From the NCBI GenBank assembly GCA_021846275.1, contig JAJZBZ010000001.1, forward strand, positions 372,001 through 436,000: a DNA stretch of 64,000 nt. Reading direction: 5' to 3'. This document shows, piece by piece, positions 819-59,380 of this stretch (the first letter of the stretch is position 1; each line of letters starts with the position of its first letter). The position numbers and the translations under genes were made by a program. Source of the DNA: Acidobacteriota bacterium (GTDB lineage: Bacteria > Acidobacteriota > Terriglobia > Terriglobales > Acidobacteriaceae). The notes beneath the pieces are model-generated. The model ran no database searches. It worked only from the letters and a program-made list of their open reading frames with translations, and was not told the DNA's origin.

Positions 819-1628
819 ATGACCCGCCGCCGCTGGATCGCCTCCGAATTCGACCGCGAAACCGCCACCCTCACCGGCGCTCAGGCCGACCATCTCGCCC
901 GCGTCCTCCGCGCCACCGCCGGCATGCAGGCTGAGATCGTCGCCGGTGACCGTCTCTTTCGCGCCGTCGTCGCCGAGGTCGCCCCCGCCGCCGTCCGCTT
1001 CCGCCTCGAAGAGGAACTCCCCGCAGCATCGCCATCCGCGCCGCCCGTCACCCTGCTCGTCGCCGTCTTCAAATTCGACCGCCTCGAATGGGCCATCGAA
1101 AAAGCCACCGAACTCGGCGTCGCCGCCATCCATCCCGCCCTCGCGCGCCGCACCGAAAAACACCTCGCACAGGCTGCCGCCGCGCGCGTCCAGCGCTGGC
1201 GACGCATCGCCATCGAAGCCACCCAACAGAGCCGCGGCAGCTTCGTCCCCGCCATCCACGACCCGCAGCCGCTCGCCACGCTACTCGCCGCGCCGCTCGA
1301 AACTCCCGCCGCCGACACGCGCATCCTGCTCTCCGAGCACGAAGCTGTCAATCCCTCCGCGCTCACGCTCGCCGACCGCATCCAGTCTCTCGCCGCCAGT
1401 TCCGAAGCCGCCGTCACGCTCGCCATCGGCCCCGAAGGCGGCTGGACCAGCGAAGAAACTGCGCGCTTCGCCGAAACCGGCTGGCTCGCCGCCTCGCTCG
1501 GCCCGCGCATCCTCCGCGCAGAGACCGCCATCATCGCCAGCCTCGCCATCACTGCGTCCCTGCTCGCCACTGACGGCCCCCATCCGCCATCAACCGCGCA
1601 GCAGTCTTTTCACCCGCGCTCCACCTGA
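819..1628 (+). CDS. rsmE: 16S rRNA m3U1498 methyltransferase RsmE
   Basis: Methylates N3 of U1498 in 16S rRNA using S-adenosylmethionine; cytosolic, SPOUT (trefoil knot) superfamily. The 269-residue product has the family length. An N-terminal PUA-like segment (LTGAQADHLARVLRATAG, residues ~17-34) is followed by LLVAVFKFDRLEWAIEKATE (~75-94). The knot motifs AIGPEGGWTSEE and LGPRILRAETA near the C-terminus bind the cofactor. The ATG at 819 matches the family N-terminus. Its last 19 bp overlap the 3' end of the convergent LysR gene. Confidence 0.95.
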   Translation: MTRRRWIASEFDRETATLTGAQADHLARVLRATAGMQAEIVAGDRLFRAVVAEVAPAAVRFRLEEELPAASPSAPPVTLLVAVFKFDRLEWAIEKATELGVAAIHPALARRTEKHLAQAAAARVQRWRRIAIEATQQSRGSFVPAIHDPQPLATLLAAPLETPAADTRILLSEHEAVNPSALTLADRIQSLAASSEAAVTLAIGPEGGWTSEETARFAETGWLAASLGPRILRAETAIIASLAITASLLATDGPHPPSTAQQSFHPRST

Positions 1629-2530
1629 AACGCATACGGCGCTCGTTCCCGCCGAGCCATCTCCCGCACCACGCGCAGAAACCCCATCGCCGCATGCGAC
1701 AGATTCGCGTCTCGCCGATGCACCAGCCGCAGCACGCGACGCAGCCGCAGTTCGTCCACGGCCACGCCCACCAGTTCGCCCGTCTCCAGCTCGCGCTCCA
1801 CCGTCAGCCGCGGCAGCAGCGCAACCCCGTCGCCCATCGCCACAAACCGCTTGATCGCCTCAATCGTCGGCAGCTCCACATGGATATTCAGCGGCGTCCG
1901 ATGCCGCTCAAACGCCTCAATCACCTGCCGCCGCAGCGGCGAAGCCACATTGTGCGCCACAAAACTTTCCCCGCCCAGCTCGCCAATCGATACCCGCTCC
2001 TCGCCCGCCAGCCGATGCTCCGGATACACCACCAGCATCAGCATGTCCGAGTACACGGCAATCGAGCGAAACCGCTCCGCATCCGCGCGAAACGAAGCCA
2101 TCCCCATCTCAAAATTCCGCAGGCTCAACCCCTCCGGAATCCGGCTCGCCAGCCAACGCTGCACGCTCACATCCACCCCCGGATACTGGCGGCGAAACAC
2201 ATCCAGCACCGGCAGCAGATACAGGCACGTATACTCGTTCGCCGCCAGCACCAGTTGCCCCCGCTCCAGCGATTTCAGCTCGCGCAGCGCGCTCTCCGCC
2301 TCGCGTCGCAGCGCCAGCATCCGCAGCGCATACGCGCGCAACGTCTCGCCCGCCGCCGTCAGCGCCCCATCCCGCGCCGCGCGGTCCAGCAGCACCTCGC
2401 CCGTCTCTTCCTCCAGCTTGCGAATCACCTGGCTGATCGCCGGCTGCGTCCGATGCATCCGCACCGCCGCGCGCGAAAAACTTCGCTCCTCGGCCACGGC
2501 AAGAAACGTCTCCAACTGGCTCAGGTCCAT
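1610..2530 (-). CDS. LysR-family transcriptional regulator, divergent from leuA
   Basis: DNA-binding regulator of 306 residues, the usual LysR length. The N-terminal winged helix-turn-helix is clear (MDLSQLETFLAVAEERSFSR, then RTQPAISQVIRKLEEE, residues ~1-60). The rest is the periplasmic-binding-protein-like effector domain. It faces the leu/ilv block across a 240-bp AT-rich gap, the classic LysR arrangement, so control of leucine/valine synthesis is a reasonable inference; the effector is unknown. The gene overlaps the 3' end of rsmE by 19 bp. Confidence 0.9.
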   Translation of the reverse strand: MDLSQLETFLAVAEERSFSRAAVRMHRTQPAISQVIRKLEEETGEVLLDRAARDGALTAAGETLRAYALRMLALRREAESALRELKSLERGQLVLAANEYTCLYLLPVLDVFRRQYPGVDVSVQRWLASRIPEGLSLRNFEMGMASFRADAERFRSIAVYSDMLMLVVYPEHRLAGEERVSIGELGGESFVAHNVASPLRRQVIEAFERHRTPLNIHVELPTIEAIKRFVAMGDGVALLPRLTVERELETGELVGVAVDELRLRRVLRLVHRRDANLSHAAMGFLRVVREMARRERAPYAFQVERG

Positions 2531-2770: not shown

Positions 2771-3982
2771 ATGACCGACACCATGACTGAAGCCACTCAT
2801 CCGCAGGTTCTCATCTTCGACACCACGCTCCGCGACGGCGAACAGTCCCCCGGCTGCAGCATGACCATCGAGGAAAAGCTCACCATGGCTCACGCTCTGG
2901 AGGAACTCGGCGTGGATATTCTGGAGGCCGGTTTCGCCATCGCCTCCGAAGGCGACTTCGCGGCCATCTCCTCGGTCGCCCGCGCCGTGCGCGGACCCAG
3001 GGTCGCCTCGCTCGCACGCGCTCGCCGCGAAGACATTGACGCCGCCGCCCGCTCGCTCGAACACGCCAACCGCGCGCGCATTCACGTCTTCCTCGCTTCG
3101 AGCGATCTCCATCTGGAATACAAGCTCCGCATCAGCCGCGAACAGGCCCTCGCGCAAACCGGAGAATCCGTCCGCTACGCGCGCACGCTGGCCGACGATG
3201 TCGAATTTTCTCCTGAAGACGCCACGCGCTCGGACCGCGACTTCCTCGTCGAGATCGTTCGCGTCGCCGTCGAGGCCGGTGCCACCACCATCAACATGCC
3301 GGACACCGTCGGCTACTCCACGCCGGAAGAGTACGGAGCCATGTTCCGCGAGGTTCGCCAGCGCATCCCGGCCATCGACCAGTGCGGCGTCATTCTCTCC
3401 AGCCACTGCCACGACGATCTCGGCCTCGCCGTCGCCAACTCCATCGCCGCCGTTCAGGCAGGCGCGCGCCAGGTCGAATGCACCATCAACGGCATCGGCG
3501 AACGCGCCGGCAACGCCGCCCTCGAAGAGATCGCGGCCAGCTTCTTCGTCCGCGCCGACCACTACCACCTGCGCACCGGCATCCACCTGAAAAAACTCAA
3601 CGCCGTCAGCCACACCCTGCGCCAGATCATCAGCTTCGGCCCATCGCCGAACAAGGCCATCGTCGGAGCCAACGCCTTCGCTCACGAGTCTGGCATTCAC
3701 CAGCACGGCATGCTCGCCAACCCGCTCTGCTACGAGATCATGACCCCGGAGTCGGTCGGCGCAGACAGCACGCATCTGGTCCTCGGCAAACACTCCGGTC
3801 GCGCCGCCCTGCGCCATCGCCTGGAGGCGCTCGGCCACTCGCTTTCGCCCGAAGAACTGCTCGAGGTCTACCACCGCTTCGTCGCCTTGGCCGACCGCAA
3901 AAAAAATATCTACGACCAGGACCTGATCGGACTGCTCACGCACCGCGACCACCACTCCGGCGAGATGGCCCGCGTCGATTAG
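2771..3982 (+). CDS. leuA: 2-isopropylmalate synthase, short form lacking the regulatory domain
   Basis: Condenses acetyl-CoA with 2-oxoisovalerate, the first committed step of leucine synthesis. The start at 2771 follows TAAGGAG and gives 403 residues. The TIM barrel opens with [16 protein letters not shown] (metal-binding RDGEQ); [13 protein letters not shown] supplies the metal-binding His pair; [13 protein letters not shown] and [14 protein letters not shown] are also typical. Subdomain II ends in [15 protein letters not shown] and the protein stops there. Typical LeuA is about 510-520 residues and carries a C-terminal leucine-binding LeuA_dimer domain. Only 79 bp separate the stop from leuB, so no displaced domain remains. 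The enzyme may escape leucine feedback inhibition (inference). A homocitrate- or citramalate-synthase role is less likely given the leuBCD neighbours. Confidence 0.9.
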
Positions 3983-4061: not shown

Positions 4062-5138
4062 ATGGCATTTCAACTTTTAGTCACGGCAGGCGACGGCATC
4101 GGACCCGAGGTCACGCGCGAGGCCGTCTCCGTTTTGCAAACGGTCTTCGCGCGCTCCGGCCAATCCCTCGAAGTCACCGAAAAACGCATCGGCGGCATCG
4201 CCATTGACACCGACGGCACGCCGCTGCCCGCTGACACGCTTGAAGCCGCGCTCGCCTCCGACGCCGTTTTTCTCGGTGCCGTCGGCGGCAACAAATGGAA
4301 CGCGCTGCCGCCCTCCACGCGCCCCGAATCCGGCCTGCTTCAGCTTCGCGCCGCGCTCGGCGGATTCGCCAATCTGCGCCCGGCTTTTTCCATCGCCGAG
4401 CTTGCCGCCAACAGTCCGCTCAAGCTCGACATCGTCTCCGGCACCGACATTCTCTTCGTCCGCGAACTGCTCGGCGGCCTCTACTTCGGCTCGCCGCGCG
4501 AGTGGAACCGCGCCGCCGGCGAAGCCTGGAACACCATGCGCTACACCCGCGACGAAATCACGCGCGTCGCCCGCATCGCCTTCGACCTCGCCCGCAAGCG
4601 CGGCAAAAAACTCACCTCCGTTGACAAGGCCAACGTCCTCGAAGTCTCCCAGCTCTGGCGCTCGACCGTCACCGACGTCGCCGCCGACTATCCCGACGTC
4701 ACGCTCGAACATCAGCTCGTCGATTCCATGGCCATGCTCCTCATGACCAGCCCGCGCAACTACGACGTCGTGCTCACCGAAAATCTCTTCGGCGACATTC
4801 TCAGCGACGAATCCGCCGTCATCACCGGCTCGCTCGGCATGCTGCCCTCGGCCACCATCGGCGGCCGCGTCAATCTCTACGAGCCGATCCACGGCTCCGC
4901 GCCCGACATCGCCGGCAAGGGCCTGGCCAATCCCCTCGGAGCCATCCTCACCGGCGCGCTCGTCCTGCGCCACTCCGCGGGCATGGACGCCGAGGCCGAG
5001 GCCATTGAATCCGCCGTCCGCAGCGCGCTCCAGCTCGGCTTCCGCACCGCCGATCTCGTCCGCGCCAGCACCACCGATTTCACCGTCCTTTCCACCACCG
5101 AAATGGGCAAAAAGATTCGCGAGCTTCTTCCCGCATAA
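4062..5138 (+). CDS. leuB: 3-isopropylmalate dehydrogenase
   Basis: NAD-dependent oxidative decarboxylation of 3-isopropylmalate to 2-oxoisocaproate. The 358-residue product matches the family. [14 protein letters not shown] opens the fold; [20 protein letters not shown] carries the substrate arginines; the metal-binding region is [37 protein letters not shown] is the NAD-binding signature. The ATG at 4062 is preceded by AAGGGAGC. The gene lies 79 bp after leuA and 24 bp before leuC. Confidence 0.97.
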
Positions 5139-5162: not shown

Positions 5163-6611
<1,449 letters not shown>

Positions 6612-6612
6612 C

Positions 6613-7212
6613 ATGCAGCCCTTTCGCACCCTCACTTCGCGCGCCGTACCGCTTGATCGCGTCAACGTCGACACCGACCAGATCATCCCCAAGCAGTTCC
6701 TCAAGCGCATCGAGCGCTCCGGCTACGGCGAGTTCCTCTTCTATGACTGGCGCAACGAAAGCAACTTCGTCCTGAACGATCCGCGCTACGCTGGCGCGCA
6801 GATCCTCGTCGCCGGAAAAAACTTCGGCTGCGGCTCCAGCCGCGAACACGCCGCCTGGGCGCTCTCCGACTACGGCTTCCGCGTCGTCATCGCGCCCACC
6901 TTCGCCGACATTTTCTTCTCGAACGCCGGCAAGAACGGCATCGTCCTCGCGCGCCTCACCGAAGCCGAAGTCGCGCTGCTGCTGGAGCGCTCGGCCACGC
7001 ATCCTGACTATCAGCTCACCGTCTCGCTCGCCGACCAGCGCGTCACCGACTCGCACGGATTCTCGGCCAGCTTCGAGATCGATCCCTTCCGCAAATACTG
7101 CCTGCTGGAGGGTCTCGACGACATCGGCCTCACCCTGCGCCACGCCTCCGCGCTCGACGCCTACGAAACCATGCACGACCACGCGCACTGGCTCAGCCCG
7201 CGCGCCAACTAG
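6613..7212 (+). CDS. leuD: 3-isopropylmalate dehydratase small subunit
   Basis: The 199-residue swivel-domain partner of LeuC. The substrate-binding loop GKNFGCGSSREHAAWAL is intact. The N-terminus (VNVDTDQIIPKQFL) is typical. The ATG at 6613 lies one base after the leuC stop and has no separate strong ribosome-binding site, which fits coupled translation. Confidence 0.96.
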   Translation: MQPFRTLTSRAVPLDRVNVDTDQIIPKQFLKRIERSGYGEFLFYDWRNESNFVLNDPRYAGAQILVAGKNFGCGSSREHAAWALSDYGFRVVIAPTFADIFFSNAGKNGIVLARLTEAEVALLLERSATHPDYQLTVSLADQRVTDSHGFSASFEIDPFRKYCLLEGLDDIGLTLRHASALDAYETMHDHAHWLSPRAN

Positions 7213-7318
7213 TCTTCCACCGCGAGAAGATTTTTTCGCGCCCTTGATCTTTTTTAGAAACGCAGCGGCAAATCATCGCCGCATCCAACCCGGAAACTCC
7301 GAGGATACATTTCACTCC

Positions 7319-8995
7319 ATGACCGTCGAAGGCAAGCGCCACAGCATCCCGATGACCGAAGGCCCCAGCCGCGCCGCCGCGCGCAGCTATCTGCGCGGCG
7401 TCGGCTTCACCAAAGACGACCTGCACAAGCCCATCATCGGCATCGCCAACACCTGGACCGAGATCGGCACCTGCAACATGCACCTCCGCGAGATCGCCGA
7501 AGCCCTCAAGCAGGGCATCCGCGAGGCCGGCGGCACGCCCATGGAGTTCAACACCGTCACCATCTCCGACGGCATCACCATGGGCACGCAGGGCATGAAG
7601 GCCTCGCTCGTCAGCCGCGAGGTCATCGCCGACTCCATCGAACTCGTCGCGCGCGGCAATCTCTTCGACGGCATCGTCGGCATCGGCGGCTGCGACAAAA
7701 ACATGCCCGGCATCATCATGGCGCTCTGCCGGCTCGACATTCCCGGCATGATGCTCTACGGCGGCTCCATCGCGCCCGGCAAACTCAACGGCATCGACAT
7801 CACCATCCAGAACGTCTTCGAGGGCATCGGCGCGCACGCTCGCGGAGCCATCGACGACGCCGGCCTCGAAGCGCTCGAAGCCGCCGCCTGTCCCGGTGCC
7901 GGAGCCTGCGGCGGCCAGTTCACCGCCAACACCATGGCCATGGGCGCGGAGATTCTCGGCATCAGTCCCATCCAGCTTTCCGGCGTTCCCGCCACCGCCT
8001 CCGACAAGCACGAGGCCACGCGCCACGCCGGTCGCATCCTCATGGACGCCGTCCGCGCCAACCGCCGCCCGTCCGACATCATCACGCGCGCCTCGCTCGA
8101 AAACGCCATCGCCGCCGTCGCCGCCTCCGGCGGATCCACCAACGCCGTGCTCCACTTCCTCGCCATCGCGCGCGAGATGCGCATCGCGCTCTCCATCGAC
8201 GACTTCGACCGCATCAGTGACCGCACGCCCTTCATCTGCGACCTCACACCCGCCGGCAAATTCGTCGCCAGCGACTATCAGGCCGCCGGCGGCTCGCGCC
8301 TGCTCGCGCAGCGCATGCTCGGCGCCGGCCATCTCCACGGCCACGCGCTCACCATCAGCGGCAAAACCATCGCGGAAGAAGCCGCCGAAGCCGTCGAAAC
8401 CCCCGGCCAGGTCGTCATCCGCACCTTCGAACAGCCGCTCAAGCCACACGGCGGCCTCGTCATCCTCAAGGGCAATCTCTCGCCCGAAGGCGCAGTCATG
8501 AAGATCGCCGCCGCCGACCGCCTCGAACATCGCGGCCCGGCGCGCGTCTTCAACTGCGAAGACGATTGCTTCGCCGCCGTCCAGGCCCAGCAGATCCGCC
8601 CCGGCGACGTGCTCGTCATCCGCTACGAAGGCCCCAAAGGCGGACCCGGCATGCGCGAAATGCTCCAGGTCACCGCCGCCGTCAGCTCCAACGCCACGCT
8701 CAGCGCCACCGTCGCCCTGCTCACCGACGGCCGCTTCTCCGGTGCCACGCGCGGCTTCACCGCAGGCCACGTTGCGCCCGAGGCTCAGGTCGGCGGACCC
8801 ATCGCGCTCGTCCGCGAAGGCGACCTCATCCACTTCGACATTCCCAACCGCACGCTCACGCTCGAGGTCGCAGACGACGAGCTTGCCCGCCGCCGCGCCG
8901 AGTGGCAGCCTCAGCCCGCGCGCTGGCCCACCGGCGTCTTCGCCAAGTATGTGGATCGCGTCCGCTCCGCATCCGAAGGAGCAATCACAATTTAA
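7319..8995 (+). CDS. ilvD: Dihydroxy-acid dehydratase
   Basis: Dehydrates 2,3-dihydroxyisovalerate and dihydroxymethylvalerate, a shared step of valine, leucine and isoleucine synthesis; Fe-S enzyme. The start at 7319 gives 558 residues and fits the family (MTVEGKRHSIPMTEGPSRAA). An upstream in-frame TTG at 7244 would add unrelated residues. Cluster cysteines are in GIGGCDKNMPG and CPGAGACGGQFTANTM. YEGPKGGPGMREM and TDGRFSGATRGFTAGHVAPE are C-terminal signatures. The stop is followed 14 bp later by an AT-rich orphan ORF. Confidence 0.97.
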   Translation: MTVEGKRHSIPMTEGPSRAAARSYLRGVGFTKDDLHKPIIGIANTWTEIGTCNMHLREIAEALKQGIREAGGTPMEFNTVTISDGITMGTQGMKASLVSREVIADSIELVARGNLFDGIVGIGGCDKNMPGIIMALCRLDIPGMMLYGGSIAPGKLNGIDITIQNVFEGIGAHARGAIDDAGLEALEAAACPGAGACGGQFTANTMAMGAEILGISPIQLSGVPATASDKHEATRHAGRILMDAVRANRRPSDIITRASLENAIAAVAASGGSTNAVLHFLAIAREMRIALSIDDFDRISDRTPFICDLTPAGKFVASDYQAAGGSRLLAQRMLGAGHLHGHALTISGKTIAEEAAEAVETPGQVVIRTFEQPLKPHGGLVILKGNLSPEGAVMKIAAADRLEHRGPARVFNCEDDCFAAVQAQQIRPGDVLVIRYEGPKGGPGMREMLQVTAAVSSNATLSATVALLTDGRFSGATRGFTAGHVAPEAQVGGPIALVREGDLIHFDIPNRTLTLEVADDELARRRAEWQPQPARWPTGVFAKYVDRVRSASEGAITI

Positions 8996-9009
8996 TTTGG
9001 AGAAAGTAC

Positions 9010-9300
9010 ATGCGTAAATGGCCAAGACCTGCTACGGAAGCTAGATTTCCATTTAGGGTAACTTGTACGTTTGAAGCTATCTCCCTGTTTCATTCAGGAG
9101 ATGTCTCATCTTTTAATTGTGATGAAGGTTTTAAGTCTGACACGATTAATATCTGCGAAGGAGATGGTATTTTGGCTTACGTTAGAAGTGATGTTAAGTA
9201 CTTAGGTAAAGAGGTAGTTCTCTTTACCCGTATGGATGAGATTTTCTTCGTGGATAGGGATGTCTTCAACCGATCAACCAGGCCGATAGCACAAACTTGA
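9010..9300 (+). CDS. AT-rich orphan ORF of 96 codons inside the ilv operon
   Basis: Unrecognised protein. ATG at 9010 follows TTGGAGAAAGTAC, a plausible ribosome-binding site, and the frame runs to TGA at 9298-9300. Counting 9061-9300 gives about 40% GC, far below the flanking ilv genes, and codons such as GTT, TTA and AGA are common here but rare around it. The predicted product is soluble, with alternating beta-type segments (RFPFRVTCTFEAISLF, GILAYVRSDVKYLGKEVVLF), an acidic middle with two cysteines, and no signal peptide or membrane segment. It lies 14 bp after ilvD and 21 bp before ilvB, on the same strand, so it must be co-transcribed. Composition suggests recent acquisition. A function cannot be inferred. 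Confidence 0.7.
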   Translation: MRKWPRPATEARFPFRVTCTFEAISLFHSGDVSSFNCDEGFKSDTINICEGDGILAYVRSDVKYLGKEVVLFTRMDEIFFVDRDVFNRSTRPIAQT

Positions 9301-9321
9301 TCTCGGAAAAAGGAGATGGCG

Positions 9322-11085
9322 ATGGAAAAAATGCCAGTTCACGATGAAGTCGCGCAGGCCATTCAGCCAGCGATTTTGACCGGCTCTGAAATCCTCTGGG
9401 CCACGCTCGTCGGCGAGGGCGTCACCGAAGTCTTCGGCTACCCCGGCGGAGCCATCCTGCCCGCCTACGACGCGCTGCGCAAATTCCCCATCCGCCACAT
9501 CCTCGTCCGCCACGAACAGGGCGCCGCTCACATGGCCGACGGCTACGCACGCGCCTCCGGAAAAGTCGGCGTCGCCATCGCCACCAGCGGCCCCGGTGCC
9601 ACCAACCTCGTCACCGGCATCGCCACCGCCATGATGGACTCCATCCCCATCGTCTGCATCACCGGCCAGGTCTCCAGCAAAGTCCTCGGCACCGACGCAT
9701 TCCAGGAGATCGACATCACCGGCATCACCCTGCCCGTCACCAAACACAACTTCCTCGTCAGCCGCGCCGAGGACATCGCGCCCGCCATTCGCGCCGCATT
9801 CCAGATCGCGCAATCCGGTCGTCCCGGCCCGGTGCTCGTCGACATCACCAAGGACGCGCAGCAGGCCCGTGCCGACTTCGATTTCGCCGCCGCCCAGCCG
9901 CGCCCCTACACGCCGCACCCCATGCTCCACTGCACCGACCACAAGCTCCACCACGCAGCCGAACTCATCCGCAAAGCCGAGCGCCCCGTCATCCTCGCCG
10001 GCCACGGCATCCTCCAGTCCCGCGCCGGAGAGCAGGTCCGCTCGCTCGCCGAACGCATGCAGATTCCCGTCGGCCTCACGCTGCTCGGCCTCGGCGCGTT
10101 CCCCGCGTCCCACCCGCTCAGCATGGGCATGATGGGCATGCACGGCGAGTCCTGGGTCAATCACGCCATCCAGAACGCCGACCTGCTCATCGCCTGCGGC
10201 ATGCGCTTCGACGACCGCGTCATCGGAACCCCAGCCACCTACGCGCCCAACGCAAAAAAAATTCACATCGAAATCGACCCCGCCGAGATCAACAAAAACA
10301 TTCCCGTCGACGTCGCTCTTGTCGGCGATCTCCGCGAAGTCCTCGAGCAGTTGCTCCCGCTTCTGCCCGGTCGCGACGGCTCCGCCTGGCTGCGCTCCAT
10401 CGAAGACAGCAAAGGCTCCGCCGCCGTCCGCGACATTCGCAATCTTCCCGACTCCGGCCATCTCTACGCCGCCCACGTCATGCACGATCTCTGGCGCATC
10501 ACCGAGGGCCGCGCCATCGTCGCGACCGACGTCGGCCAGCACCAGATGTGGGAGGCCCAGTACTATCACCACGACCATCCCCGCACCCTCATCACCTCCG
10601 GCGGACTCGGCACCATGGGCTTCGCCCTGCCCGCCGGCATCGGCGCCAAAGTCGCCTGCCCCGACCGCGAGGTCTGGGTCATCGCCGGTGACGGCGGCTT
10701 CCAGATGACCGCCTCCGAGCTGGCCACCATCGCCCAGGAAAAGCTCAAGGTCAACATCGCCATCATCAACAACGGCTACCTCGGCATGGTCCGCCAGTGG
10801 CAGGAATTTTTCTACGAGCGCAACTATGAATCCACGCCGCTCGTCAGCCCCGATTTCGTCAAGCTCGCCGACGCGCACGGCATCGCCGGAGCAGCCGTCA
10901 GCACGCGCGCCGAACTCGCCAGCGTCGTTGAGCGCGCCCGCCAGCACAACGGCCCGTTCCTCATCAACTTCCTCGTCGAGCAGGAAGACTCCGTTTACCC
11001 CATGATTCCCGTCGGCAGCGCGCTCCATGAGATGATCCGCCGCCCCGACCACAACCCGCTCGTCGAAACCCCGCAGGACTTCTAG
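9322..11085 (+). CDS. ilvB: Acetolactate synthase large (catalytic) subunit
   Basis: Thiamine-diphosphate and FAD enzyme forming 2-acetolactate from pyruvate. The 587-residue length is normal. RHEQGAAHMADGYARASGK carries the ThDP-activating Glu. The ThDP/Mg motif is AGDGGFQMTASELATIAQEK followed by INNGYLGMVRQWQ. The AAGGAG at 9310-9315 is 6 nt from the ATG at 9322; an in-frame ATG at 9316 directly abuts it, so 9322 is preferred. The regulatory subunit ilvN follows after 19 bp. Confidence 0.96.
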   Translation: MEKMPVHDEVAQAIQPAILTGSEILWATLVGEGVTEVFGYPGGAILPAYDALRKFPIRHILVRHEQGAAHMADGYARASGKVGVAIATSGPGATNLVTGIATAMMDSIPIVCITGQVSSKVLGTDAFQEIDITGITLPVTKHNFLVSRAEDIAPAIRAAFQIAQSGRPGPVLVDITKDAQQARADFDFAAAQPRPYTPHPMLHCTDHKLHHAAELIRKAERPVILAGHGILQSRAGEQVRSLAERMQIPVGLTLLGLGAFPASHPLSMGMMGMHGESWVNHAIQNADLLIACGMRFDDRVIGTPATYAPNAKKIHIEIDPAEINKNIPVDVALVGDLREVLEQLLPLLPGRDGSAWLRSIEDSKGSAAVRDIRNLPDSGHLYAAHVMHDLWRITEGRAIVATDVGQHQMWEAQYYHHDHPRTLITSGGLGTMGFALPAGIGAKVACPDREVWVIAGDGGFQMTASELATIAQEKLKVNIAIINNGYLGMVRQWQEFFYERNYESTPLVSPDFVKLADAHGIAGAAVSTRAELASVVERARQHNGPFLINFLVEQEDSVYPMIPVGSALHEMIRRPDHNPLVETPQDF

Positions 11086-11104: not shown

Positions 11105-11659
11105 ATGCTCCACACCTTCGTAGCCTACGTCGAAGACAAGCCCGGCGTGCTCACCCGCGTCGCCAGCCTCTTTCGCCGCCTCAACATCAACATCATCTCG
11201 CTCACCGTCGGTCGCAGCGAGCGCGCCGGTTACTCCCGCATGACCATCGTCGCCGATGCCTCCGACCAGGCCGGCCATCGCATCCGCGCCAGCCTCTACA
11301 AACTCGAAGACGTGGCCGAGGTCGATGACATCAGCGGCGTCTCCGCCGTCACCCGCGAACTCGCCCTCATCAAAGTCGCCGCCAACGCCGAATCCCGCTC
11401 CGGCGTCTTCGAACTCGCCGAGGTCTTCCGCGCGCGCATCGTCGATCTCGCCCCTGAATCCCTCATGATCGAGATCACCGGCGTCGAAAGCAAGATCGAG
11501 GGCCTCATCCAGGTGCTCAACGAGCGCGAAAATCGCGTCCTCGAAGTCTGCCGCAGCGGTAAAATGACCATGCGCCGTGGTCATCACACCAGCCGCGTCC
11601 TGCGCGCCATGGGCGTCACCGACATTCCCGACGGCATCGAACCCGTCGATCCCGATTAG
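11105..11659 (+). CDS. ilvN: Acetolactate synthase small (regulatory) subunit
   Basis: Activates IlvB and binds valine for feedback control. At 184 residues it is the long IlvH/IlvN type. The N-terminal ACT domain is clear (HTFVAYVEDKPGVLTRVASL, FRRLNINIISLTVG, residues ~2-75), followed by the ALS_ss C-terminal domain (EITGVESKIEGLIQVL). Preceded by AAAGGACC. Confidence 0.95.
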   Translation: MLHTFVAYVEDKPGVLTRVASLFRRLNINIISLTVGRSERAGYSRMTIVADASDQAGHRIRASLYKLEDVAEVDDISGVSAVTRELALIKVAANAESRSGVFELAEVFRARIVDLAPESLMIEITGVESKIEGLIQVLNERENRVLEVCRSGKMTMRRGHHTSRVLRAMGVTDIPDGIEPVDPD

Positions 11660-11746: not shown

Positions 11747-12787
<1,041 letters not shown>

Positions 12788-16574: not shown

Positions 16575-16651
<77 letters not shown>

Positions 16652-37221: not shown

Positions 37222-37603
37222 TCTGCCTCTTTCGTTCTCAGCCTCGACTCATTTCGAGACCGGAAACCGGGCGTTCCCCGCTGGATTCTTCTGCCTGCTT
37301 TTCACTTCCCCCGAGCAGGTCAGGCACCAGCACGCCCTTCCATGTACACAGCCTATGTCTCAATCTAACTGAAAACAATGACAGTTAAGTAGGAATCATG
37401 TAACCCGAACCGGTCTCTTTGATACCACTTCGGAGCACACCGGATGGTTACCTTTTTCTCCCAAAACAGCCGCAAACATCCCTGGACGCGCAGCCACCCA
37501 CCACGCCCAATCCCTCGATTTCTCAACATTTTTCTGATTTTTCGCTCGATCAGGCCGATCGCAGCCACCTCTGCGCCCGCTCCATCCCTGAAACTACAAC
37601 TTA

Positions 37604-37624
37604 AGTAACCAATCACTGGTTACT
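37604..37624. repeat. Hairpin 1 of a twin GTTACT palindrome
   Basis: AGTAACCA (37604-37611) pairs with TGGTTACT (37617-37624), loop ATCAC. It lies just downstream of the hydrolase gene stop (37685, minus strand), and could act as a terminator or regulator site. Confidence 0.7.
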
Positions 37625-37640
37625 ATTGCTCTTTTATATG

Positions 37641-37663
37641 GTTACTCTAACTCGAAGAGTAAC
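37641..37663. repeat. Hairpin 2 of a twin GTTACT palindrome
   Basis: GTTACTCT (37641-37648) pairs with AGAGTAAC (37656-37663), loop AACTCGA. It shares the GTTACT core with hairpin 1, 16 bp away, and with the sequence overlapping the hydrolase stop codon. Confidence 0.7.
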
Positions 37664-37684
37664 TTGTCGCGCGCCATGCATCGG

Positions 37685-40054
37685 TTACTCATCCCACTCC
37701 ATCACCGTCACGGAGCAAGCAGGTAGCTCCAGCGTTCCCCCTGCCGTAAAACCATTTTTCACCTTCACCTGCTCAGAATTTTCATTCGACGCCGCCGGAT
37801 CACCATCCCCCACCCGGCTCCAGCGCATCGTCCCGCCCGCCGCAACCCCATCCACCCGCACCGCATGCGCCGCCGTCCGCGACAGGTTATACGCCACCAG
37901 CACGCGATGCACCTTCTGCCCATCCCGGCTGCGAAACCCGAAAAAATCCAGATCATGCGCCGCCGCCATCTCCACCCCATCGTTGCCGCGCGCCACCGCA
38001 TGCGCCGGATTCGCCCCGCTCACCGCAACCCGCACCATATCGCCGCGAATCTCCGCATTCACCATCGCCTCGGCCACAAACACCGGCCTTCGCCGCATCG
38101 TCGGCCCCATATCCACCACTGATCCCCACAGCCTCACCTGCTTCCCGTCGCCGCGCCGGAACTCATACTGCGGCAGGCTGAAGACCATCGCATCGCGCAC
38201 TCCCTCGTCGCGCTTCATGCGCAGCATCAGATCCGTCACCGCCACTCCGCCCGCCAGCGAAGGCGTCAGCCGGTCCAGCGCCGCCTGGTCCGCCGCTCCC
38301 TCGGTCGAGTGCAGATTCACCTCATAGACCGCCAGCCGCTTCGCAACCGCCGCCTGCCGCGCCTCGGCCAGCAACCCATGCGTCGCAAAATACTCCGGCT
38401 CGGCCAGCAGCGGGTCAAACAACTCCGCATCCGTCGCCCCATGATCCACCGCATGCATCATGTACGGCGCAATCGCCAGCGAATCCGCCAGCTCGCTCGC
38501 ACTCACCACGCGAGCGTCCTGCTCCTCCGGCAGCCGCTCGACACCCGCCTGCGCATTCACCACCAGGTCGAACTTCGCCGCCTCACTTCCCGCAGCCCGG
38601 CGAAACGCCGCAAAAACCTGCCGCGCCTCCGCGCCATACGCGCCCGCATCCTCCATCGATTCGCCGTGAAAAATGCTGTTCCACGCCTCATTGCCCAGCT
38701 CCAGATGAATCCGCTTGAAGACCGTCGTCCACGGCGCAGCCTGGCCTTCAGCCGCGCGCATCGCCCCGCCCGCGCTCGCCGCGTCCCCGGCCAGATACTC
38801 CGCCAGCAGCTTCGCTTCGCCCGCGTCCGTCCCCATCGGAATCACGATCCACGGCTCCGCGCCCACCGCGCGGCAAAGCTCCAGAAACTCCGGCACACCC
38901 ACAGCCACATCCGTCGCCTCCGTCGACCACACCGAATACCCCGCCCGCTCGCGCGCCATCCTCGGCTCCAGCAGCTCGCGCATCGACGCGCCCAGTTGCT
39001 CGCCCGCCATCAGCCGCATCACGCCCGGATCGAGCGCCCGCAGCGTCTCCACCACCTCATCGCGAAAGGCCGTCGGATTCTGCGCCGCGGAATCCGTCAC
39101 CGCCTCCAGCGAAACATCATCCAGCAGCAGACTCGCCCCGGCAATCGCAAAGCTCAGCTTCGCCGTCCCCGCCTGCCCCACATCCACCGCCCGAAAGCGA
39201 AAGCTGTAATCCTGCCAACCCTTGCGCAGCGCAATCTCCCGGCTGAAAAAAACCGGCTGCCCCGCGCGACCCACCGTCGCCGTCAGGCTCGCCGCGCCCG
39301 CCAGCGGCTTCGCCCGAAACCGCAGCTCATACTCCCCGTCGAAACGCAGAAACCGCATCCCCGCCGTCGAATCAAAATACGATGTCACCTCCGCGCTTTC
39401 GCCAGCCATCGCCGCCTCCACGCGCAGCGCCTGCCTTCCCTGCGTCTCCGGCGAAAGATCGCTCCGCTCGGTGCTCAGCCGCGCTCCGCCGCGCACGCTC
39501 GTCCACCACCCCGCCGCCGCGTCGCCCGGAACCTTCTTGCTCAGCCTCACCCACTCGCCTGGCTCCAAACCCGCGCCCGCACTCGCGCCGCCGCTCGCAG
39601 CCTCCACGCGATACCCCTCCGCCGTCGGCAAACTCTGCCCGATCCGCCCACTCGCCGTCGCTGGCTCGTAGACATCCGTCGCCCCCGCCGCCAGCCGAAC
39701 CATCCCCTCGAAACTCCCGCCGTCCCAGAAGCCCGCCGGCCACACCACCCCGCCCATCGTCTCCGTGCAATCTTCCTGCGCGCGGTCGCAATGCACCACC
39801 GACCGATACGTCATCCCCTCAAATCCCGGATTCCGGCTCACCAGATTCCGCAGCATCTGCCCCGAGTCATAAAAATTCTGCTCACCCAGATTCATCCCCA
39901 GCCGCGTCGCCCCGGCCTCGATCACGTCATCCGTCACCGTCACGCGCGTCACCGCCTGGCCAGCCGCCTGCCCCGCGTCGCGCATCCCACACGCCACCGT
40001 CACACACACCGCCAGCGCCGTCGCCGCGCTCCACCATCTGTTTCTCATACCCAT
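37685..40054 (-). CDS. Secreted clan GH-A-like glycoside hydrolase with carbohydrate-binding module
   Basis: About 789 residues from the ATG at 40054 (GGGCGAG upstream). A signal peptide (WWSAATALAVCVTVACG) is followed by an N-terminal domain, a CBM4/9-like beta-sandwich (~190-330; YELRFRAKPL, ASLLLDDVSLE), then a TIM-barrel with the GH-A acid/base motif HLELGNEAWNSIFHG and a likely nucleophile in VYEVNLHSTEG, and a C-terminal beta domain (VHRVLVAYNLSRTAAHAVRV). The pattern resembles alpha-L-arabinofuranosidase-type enzymes (GH51/GH39). It lies next to the polysaccharide operon on the same strand and may trim that polymer. Confidence 0.75.
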   Translation of the reverse strand: MGMRNRWWSAATALAVCVTVACGMRDAGQAAGQAVTRVTVTDDVIEAGATRLGMNLGEQNFYDSGQMLRNLVSRNPGFEGMTYRSVVHCDRAQEDCTETMGGVVWPAGFWDGGSFEGMVRLAAGATDVYEPATASGRIGQSLPTAEGYRVEAASGGASAGAGLEPGEWVRLSKKVPGDAAAGWWTSVRGGARLSTERSDLSPETQGRQALRVEAAMAGESAEVTSYFDSTAGMRFLRFDGEYELRFRAKPLAGAASLTATVGRAGQPVFFSREIALRKGWQDYSFRFRAVDVGQAGTAKLSFAIAGASLLLDDVSLEAVTDSAAQNPTAFRDEVVETLRALDPGVMRLMAGEQLGASMRELLEPRMARERAGYSVWSTEATDVAVGVPEFLELCRAVGAEPWIVIPMGTDAGEAKLLAEYLAGDAASAGGAMRAAEGQAAPWTTVFKRIHLELGNEAWNSIFHGESMEDAGAYGAEARQVFAAFRRAAGSEAAKFDLVVNAQAGVERLPEEQDARVVSASELADSLAIAPYMMHAVDHGATDAELFDPLLAEPEYFATHGLLAEARQAAVAKRLAVYEVNLHSTEGAADQAALDRLTPSLAGGVAVTDLMLRMKRDEGVRDAMVFSLPQYEFRRGDGKQVRLWGSVVDMGPTMRRRPVFVAEAMVNAEIRGDMVRVAVSGANPAHAVARGNDGVEMAAAHDLDFFGFRSRDGQKVHRVLVAYNLSRTAAHAVRVDGVAAGGTMRWSRVGDGDPAASNENSEQVKVKNGFTAGGTLELPACSVTVMEWDE

Positions 40055-45077: not shown

Positions 45078-45154
45078 TGGTGCGCCCAGAGAGATTCGAA
45101 CTCCCGACCTATTGATTCGTAGTCAATCGCTCTATCCAGCTGAGCTATGGGCGC
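45078..45154 (-). tRNA. tRNA-Arg (anticodon ACG)
   Basis: 77 nt on the minus strand fold as a cloverleaf: acceptor GCGCCCA/TGGGCGC, D arm GCTC/GAGC, anticodon stem ATTGA/TCAAT with loop CTACGAA (anticodon ACG), T arm GGGAG/CTCTC with TTCGAAT, and encoded CCA. The first anticodon base should be edited to inosine to read CGU, CGC and CGA. Confidence 0.97.
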
Positions 45155-58970: not shown

Positions 58971-59315
58971 TCCGCTTCTGACCCCTGACGACTGGCCAGC
59001 GACAGCTTCCACCCCACCCAACCCCGGAAAATTTCCTTCCCAAAGTTGGCATGCAATTATTCCTGTTTATGCCATACTGAGTTTTCCGCGTCGTCCTGTG
59101 CCCGGGAACGGGATTCAGACAAGCGCATAAGATAACGAACCAGTAAACATTTCGCCGCATTTTCGTTGGCAAGAAAATTAATACCACCCCCCTGGGCGGG
59201 TAACCGGGTTAATAGCAAATCAGTAACCCGCCAAAACGAAGCCCAAAGCGCTGAATAGAATACTGTTACCTTGAAACGATTGCTTCTTCCGCTTCACCGT
59301 CCGCCAGAGCCAGCC

Positions 59316-59380
59316 CGCGACCAACGGAAGCGGCAATGGATGGCCGTGGCGCGCAAAGCGCGCAGCTGCTCCATGCAAGG
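59316..59380 (+). repeat. Mosaic intergenic repeat block D (single module)
   Basis: A lone copy of the CGCGACCAACGGAAGCGGCA module with the GGCGCGCAAAGCGCGC hairpin, most like block B. It ends 16 bp before the stop of the outer-membrane protein gene. Confidence 0.75.

Follow-up and report, generated by a model that had tools for sequence, protein, structure and literature searches.

We find that a 64-kb stretch of Acidobacteriota DNA (hereafter the window, meaning the whole stretch analysed) carries within its leu/ilv operon, between ilvD and ilvB, an intact 96-codon open reading frame (ORF), here named ORF96 (9010..9300, plus strand), which is probably a horizontally acquired orphan from a source of lower G+C (GC) content, carried as a passenger cistron between the two genes. 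In many relatives the ilvD-ilvB junction, like others in this operon, is filled by unrelated small ORFs, and for this reason our best reading of ORF96 is that of a passenger at a high-turnover junction, and not of a dedicated modulator of acetolactate synthase.

ORF96 opens with an ATG at 9010 and closes with a TGA at 9298–9300. It follows the ilvD stop at 8995 after a gap of 14 nucleotides (nt), and a putative Shine-Dalgarno site, GGAGA (8999..9003, plus strand), lies ahead of its start codon. Two in-frame ATGs are available to ilvB, at 9316 and 9322; as the Shine-Dalgarno-like GGAG (9312..9315, plus strand) directly abuts 9316, we take the ATG at 9322, which this motif presumably serves, to be the likelier start, and the gap between ORF96 and ilvB would then be 21 nt. 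The GC content of ORF96 is 0.405 (0.443, 0.433 and 0.340 at the first, second and third codon positions), against 0.638–0.682 overall and 0.830–0.882 at third positions in the eight genes of the operon. When GC is read in 291-nt segments along the 64 kb (mean 0.644, standard deviation 0.047), the minimum falls at ORF96 (0.388, segments starting at 8971–8981). The original prediction, made from the letters alone, had described a 96-codon ORF of about 40% GC with its own ribosome-binding site, gaps of 14 and 21 nt and a codon use differing sharply from both neighbours; these points are confirmed, the ribosome-binding site being the Shine-Dalgarno-like GGAGA and the codon use being reflected in the third positions, and the predicted GC counts per 60 bases match 20-base bins to about one base. 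In 20,000 first-order Markov sequences of matched composition the frame of ORF96 was open in 0.135% of trials, and at least one of the three frames was open in 0.43%. As a chance frame is thus found in about 0.1% of trials, and as the spacing is neat and Shine-Dalgarno-like sites are present, ORF96 is likely to be a protein-coding gene. The predicted product is small and soluble-looking (11.1 kDa, pI 5.8). AlphaFold2 run on the single sequence gave a poor model, mostly of strands, with a mean predicted local distance difference test score of 46.5, and a Foldseek search of this model against the PDB, which returned 68 matches at E-values up to 10 and none at 0.001 (best 1.5), gave nothing significant and was left unused. 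Two repeats were judged to be due to chance, one a direct repeat of 10 nt (AAGGAGATGG, copies at 9158 and 9310) and the other an imperfect inverted repeat of 12 nt.

No relative of ORF96 came to light in any of the collections searched. Its own genome holds no copy beyond itself, and samples of 398 genomes of the family, 399 of the class and 396 of the phylum, which overlap and include its own genome, gave no credible relative. Family-sample matches at E-values up to 1 occurred in 90 of the 398 genomes (own genome included), which is the chance level, and the best non-self match among them (E-value 0.005, 27% identity) has four in-frame TAG codons. At E-values up to 0.05 the class sample yielded 5 of 399 genomes, again with its own, and the best non-self match (4.5e-4, genome G447) was discarded because it runs antisense to an ORF of 253 amino acids (aa); the phylum sample yielded 5 of 396, own genome included, the best non-self match (0.02) containing a stop. 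Two scans of GTDB and two of IMG/VR, which require exact 8-residue matches and so detect close relatives only, found none, nor did tblastn searches of plasmids and phages. The original prediction had recognised no family, and this stands, since Pfam, NCBIfam, PHROGs, PADLOC and the PDB sequences gave no match; PHROG 32502 (E-value 0.051), a PDB chain (0.083) and a DUF6884 gene of a Streptomyces plasmid (0.3) were judged to be chance. We also looked for related genomes carrying the same ORF at normal GC, the finding named beforehand as speaking against recent acquisition, and saw none.

The genus sample comprised 15 genomes including its own, of which 14 had ilvB, leaving 13 others for comparison at the ilvD-ilvB junction. 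ORF96 is absent from the junction in all 13. In eleven of them the first ilvB ATG comes 21–108 nt after the ilvD stop and there is no insert, and the remaining two (G169 and G258) carry a different small ORF, related between the two, which starts MGLF and has no Pfam match. Alignment of the window to five genus members ends at 8984–8998 and restarts at 9377–9379, so that the divergent stretch extends over ORF96 and the variable first codons of ilvB. Sliding identity against the same five genomes revealed no clear donor-like tract beside ORF96; identity is lower in the last ilvD segment (0.70–0.78), which may be ordinary divergence. As ORF96 is an AT-rich, neatly spaced orphan that this junction lacks in the relatives compared, the recent acquisition proposed in the original prediction is probable. 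In several genus members (loci L024–L028) the ilvB ribosome-binding site lies within a GGAAG...CTTCC inverted context, for example GGAAGGGAAATCTTCC, which is missing in the window.

The junction was followed through the family in two surveys, in which an insert was defined as an ORF of 60 aa or more on the plus strand, the direction of the operon. A first survey by tblastn gave 103 loci, from which 10 without ilvD upstream in the fetched stretch were dropped; nine of the remaining 93 came from genomes that were already represented, which left 84 different junctions. Measured from the ilvD stop to the conserved ilvB start, 24 of these 84 spacers reach at least 200 nt, and 17 of the 84 hold an insert. 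In a second set, the whole operon was read in 60 family genomes plus the window (61 loci), and at least one internal insert was found in 33 loci. The ilvD>ilvB junction is filled in 18 of the 61, by 12 unrelated sequence clusters. Upstream of it, inserts occur at leuA>leuB (1/59), leuB>leuC (15/59), leuC>leuD (1/59) and leuD>ilvD (10/60), and downstream at ilvB>ilvH (19/61) and ilvH>ilvC (9/59). ORF96 has the lowest GC among the 94 inserted ORFs of this set. In the genus designated g35, 10 of 13 genomes carry an ilvD-ilvB insert and these fall into 8 unrelated clusters, which indicates a fast turnover at this junction. Judged by such clusters, the ilvD>ilvB junction appears to stand out by the diversity of its cargo, with 12 clusters against 11 at leuB>leuC, several of which resemble chance frames inside longer inserts. 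When the longest ORF of 60 aa or more is taken irrespective of strand in the 61 loci, it lies on the plus strand at all 18 ilvD>ilvB inserts, and over all junctions on the plus strand in 62 cases and on the minus strand in 11 (62/73 co-directional).

Pfam scans of representatives of 20 insert ORFs gave matches above the curated cut-off, among them DUF4288, DUF3427, a 23S rRNA-intervening-sequence protein, a bacterial PH domain, DUF5412, GIY-YIG and GNAT; the other representatives mostly had no match. Genes of the DUF4288 type lie at ilvD>ilvB in three loci (L063, L148 and L164) of two genera, g3 and g35, a shared occupancy that could reflect either recurrent entry, exchange or an old presence.

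Other operons were examined as controls. In 40 matched genomes inserts were found at 58 of 279 leu/ilv junctions vs 15 of 233 his junctions (Fisher p 3e-6, with kinship uncorrected). The trp genes proved a poor control, as only trpB and trpA lie close together (gaps of at least 200 nt in 3 of 40), and trpA>aroF is a spacer of 325–536 nt in 39 of 39. The occupancy of ilvB>ilvH, leuB>leuC and hisH>hisF is similar to that of ilvD>ilvB, and it seems that the insertion habit is general in the family and stronger in the leu/ilv operon, where several junctions are similarly used.

Several observations weigh against a passenger at a high-turnover junction. The leu/ilv operon is not unique, since the his operon too has a preferred site of insertion, hisH>hisF, with an ORF of at least 60 aa in 12 of 40 loci (L240–L278). 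Minus-strand ORFs of 60 aa or more are also present in 8 of the 24 long spacers of the 84-junction survey, and in 2 of the 24 they are the only ones, so some of the counted inserts may be no genes at all. The second set favours long contigs and was selected in part with the first survey already in view, and its rates therefore lean high. The borders of ORF96 show neither a target-site duplication nor a mobile element. Finally, ORF96 is found in one genome with no homolog by which selection could be gauged, and a useful function of its own is possible.

The original prediction had offered three roles for ORF96, namely modulation of acetolactate synthase, a small defence or immunity protein, and a passenger, and the unrelated ORFs at the same junctions speak for the last of these. 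A modulating role of ORF96 on acetolactate synthase, or on some other enzyme of this pathway, we consider highly improbable: the one point in favour is the position of ORF96 beside ilvB, and against it stand the absence of ORF96 from the junction in the 13 other genus members, the unrelated genes that occupy the same place in other genomes, the lack of any family match, with no IlvH or IlvN assignment from Pfam or NCBIfam, and a separate ilvH downstream. IlvH is the usual regulatory subunit of acetolactate synthase. A small defence, immunity or anti-toxin-like protein at an always-expressed site is unlikely, though somewhat less so; in its favour, a phage or mobile origin is common among small AT-rich orphans, and other cargo at the junction includes DUF4288 and a DUF3427-like piece. 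PADLOC matched neither ORF96 nor three other cargo proteins, and Pfam, NCBIfam and PHROGs likewise gave ORF96 no match; moreover, no partner gene adjoins it, and no relative was found among the phages or viral contigs scanned.

It could also be argued that the stretch is an AT-rich spacer or an RNA with a chance frame and no protein gene. ORF96 is an orphan, chance ORFs occur on the minus strand of comparable spacers, and the stretch folds as RNA weakly above its shuffles (z -1.79, with 6 of 100 shuffles folding equally well). We nevertheless hold this to be quite improbable in view of the rarity of such an open frame in the Markov trials and the neat start and stop spacing with Shine-Dalgarno-like sites. 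An RNA or attenuator was rejected given the weak fold, the lack of any terminator-like site in 8800–9500 and the lack of an Rfam family above threshold at the locus, where a microRNA match lay far below its gathering score. The single promoter-like site in 8800–9500 is on the minus strand.

If ORF96 is a passenger cistron, as we favor, it would have arrived between ilvD and ilvB as one cistron in the direction of the operon. Read-through from the leu-ilv promoter would very likely provide its transcription, and its translation would start from its own Shine-Dalgarno site. It would then be expressed whenever the operon is, while its own activity may well be unrelated to branched-chain amino acids. 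At this junction one more cistron that brings its own ribosome-binding site could be of little harm, and retention of ORF96 may thus be near-neutral. We further suggest, tentatively and as a rather doubtful extension, that the leu-ilv junctions of this family, and ilvD-ilvB above all for its diversity, could be a docking place for small foreign genes. Cargo there would turn over rapidly, possibly through homologous recombination at the conserved ilvD and ilvB flanks with no mobile element involved, and would at once come under branched-chain amino-acid control; of the cargo observed, ORF96 would be the newest and the most AT-rich.

Orphan genes that have inserted into operons are already known as a class. 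Price, Arkin and Alm (2006), in their idea of an operon life cycle, are said to include horizontally acquired ORFans inserted into native operons, and ORF96 likewise is a lineage-restricted gene of low GC within an operon of unrelated function; unlike in that picture, 33 of 61 leu/ilv loci here have at least one internal insert. The origins of ORFans are among the subjects of PMC2395238. PMC5635113 describes hotspots of gene turnover and proposes exchange by recombination at the flanking core genes. The ilvD-ilvB junction resembles those hotspots in having unrelated cargo between two conserved genes and no recognised mobile element at the borders in the window, and differs from them in that the site is inside a biosynthetic operon, that one small gene in the operon's direction usually makes up the cargo, and that the identity of the flanks shows no clear donor tract. 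The usual view is that operons resist insertion into their interior (PMC5635113), and despite that view a core biosynthetic operon in this family is broken up by many small genes that are unrelated to one another and co-directional with it. Whereas ORF96 alone is one more orphan, the wider pattern is more useful, as a natural series in which to measure gene entry into and exit from operons and as a source of uncharacterised small proteins. Our search of the literature found no publication that, judged by its entry, deals with the ilvD-ilvB junction in this family, and none for DUF4288.

The order of the operon in the window, as assigned with NCBIfam profiles, is leuA-leuB-leuC-leuD-ilvD-[ORF96]-ilvB-ilvH-ilvC, all on the plus strand. 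It begins with leuA for 2-isopropylmalate synthase (2774..3982, start approximate; NF002086, positions 4–387 of 516) and leuB (4065..5138, start approximate; TIGR00169), followed by leuC (5163..6611; TIGR00170), leuD (6613..7212; TIGR00171, the match beginning at residue 20 of a frame that opens at 6556) and ilvD, the upstream neighbour of ORF96 (7316..8995; TIGR00110). Downstream of ORF96 lie ilvB (9322..11085, from its likely start; TIGR00118), ilvH for the acetolactate synthase small subunit (11105..11659; TIGR00119) and ilvC (11765..12787; TIGR00465). From its profile coverage, LeuA seemingly lacks its C-terminal domain, which we take to be the allosteric one. An AT-rich intergenic stretch with GC below 0.5 (2471–2851) separates leuA from a divergent gene for a LysR-type regulator (1610–2530, minus strand), and is likely a control region.

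Elsewhere in the window GC falls below 50% at 37331–37801, which looks intergenic in the ORF listing, and at 58991–59321. Across the window Rfam gave just two matches above threshold, both of them tRNA genes on the minus strand (16578–16651 and 45081–45154). In the genome to which the window belongs hisD and hisC lie in one frame of 821 aa (positions 6873–9338 of locus L239, minus strand), and similarly long hisD frames of 884–922 aa are present in G210, G131 and G234, which suggests that some members of the genus have a HisD-HisC fusion.
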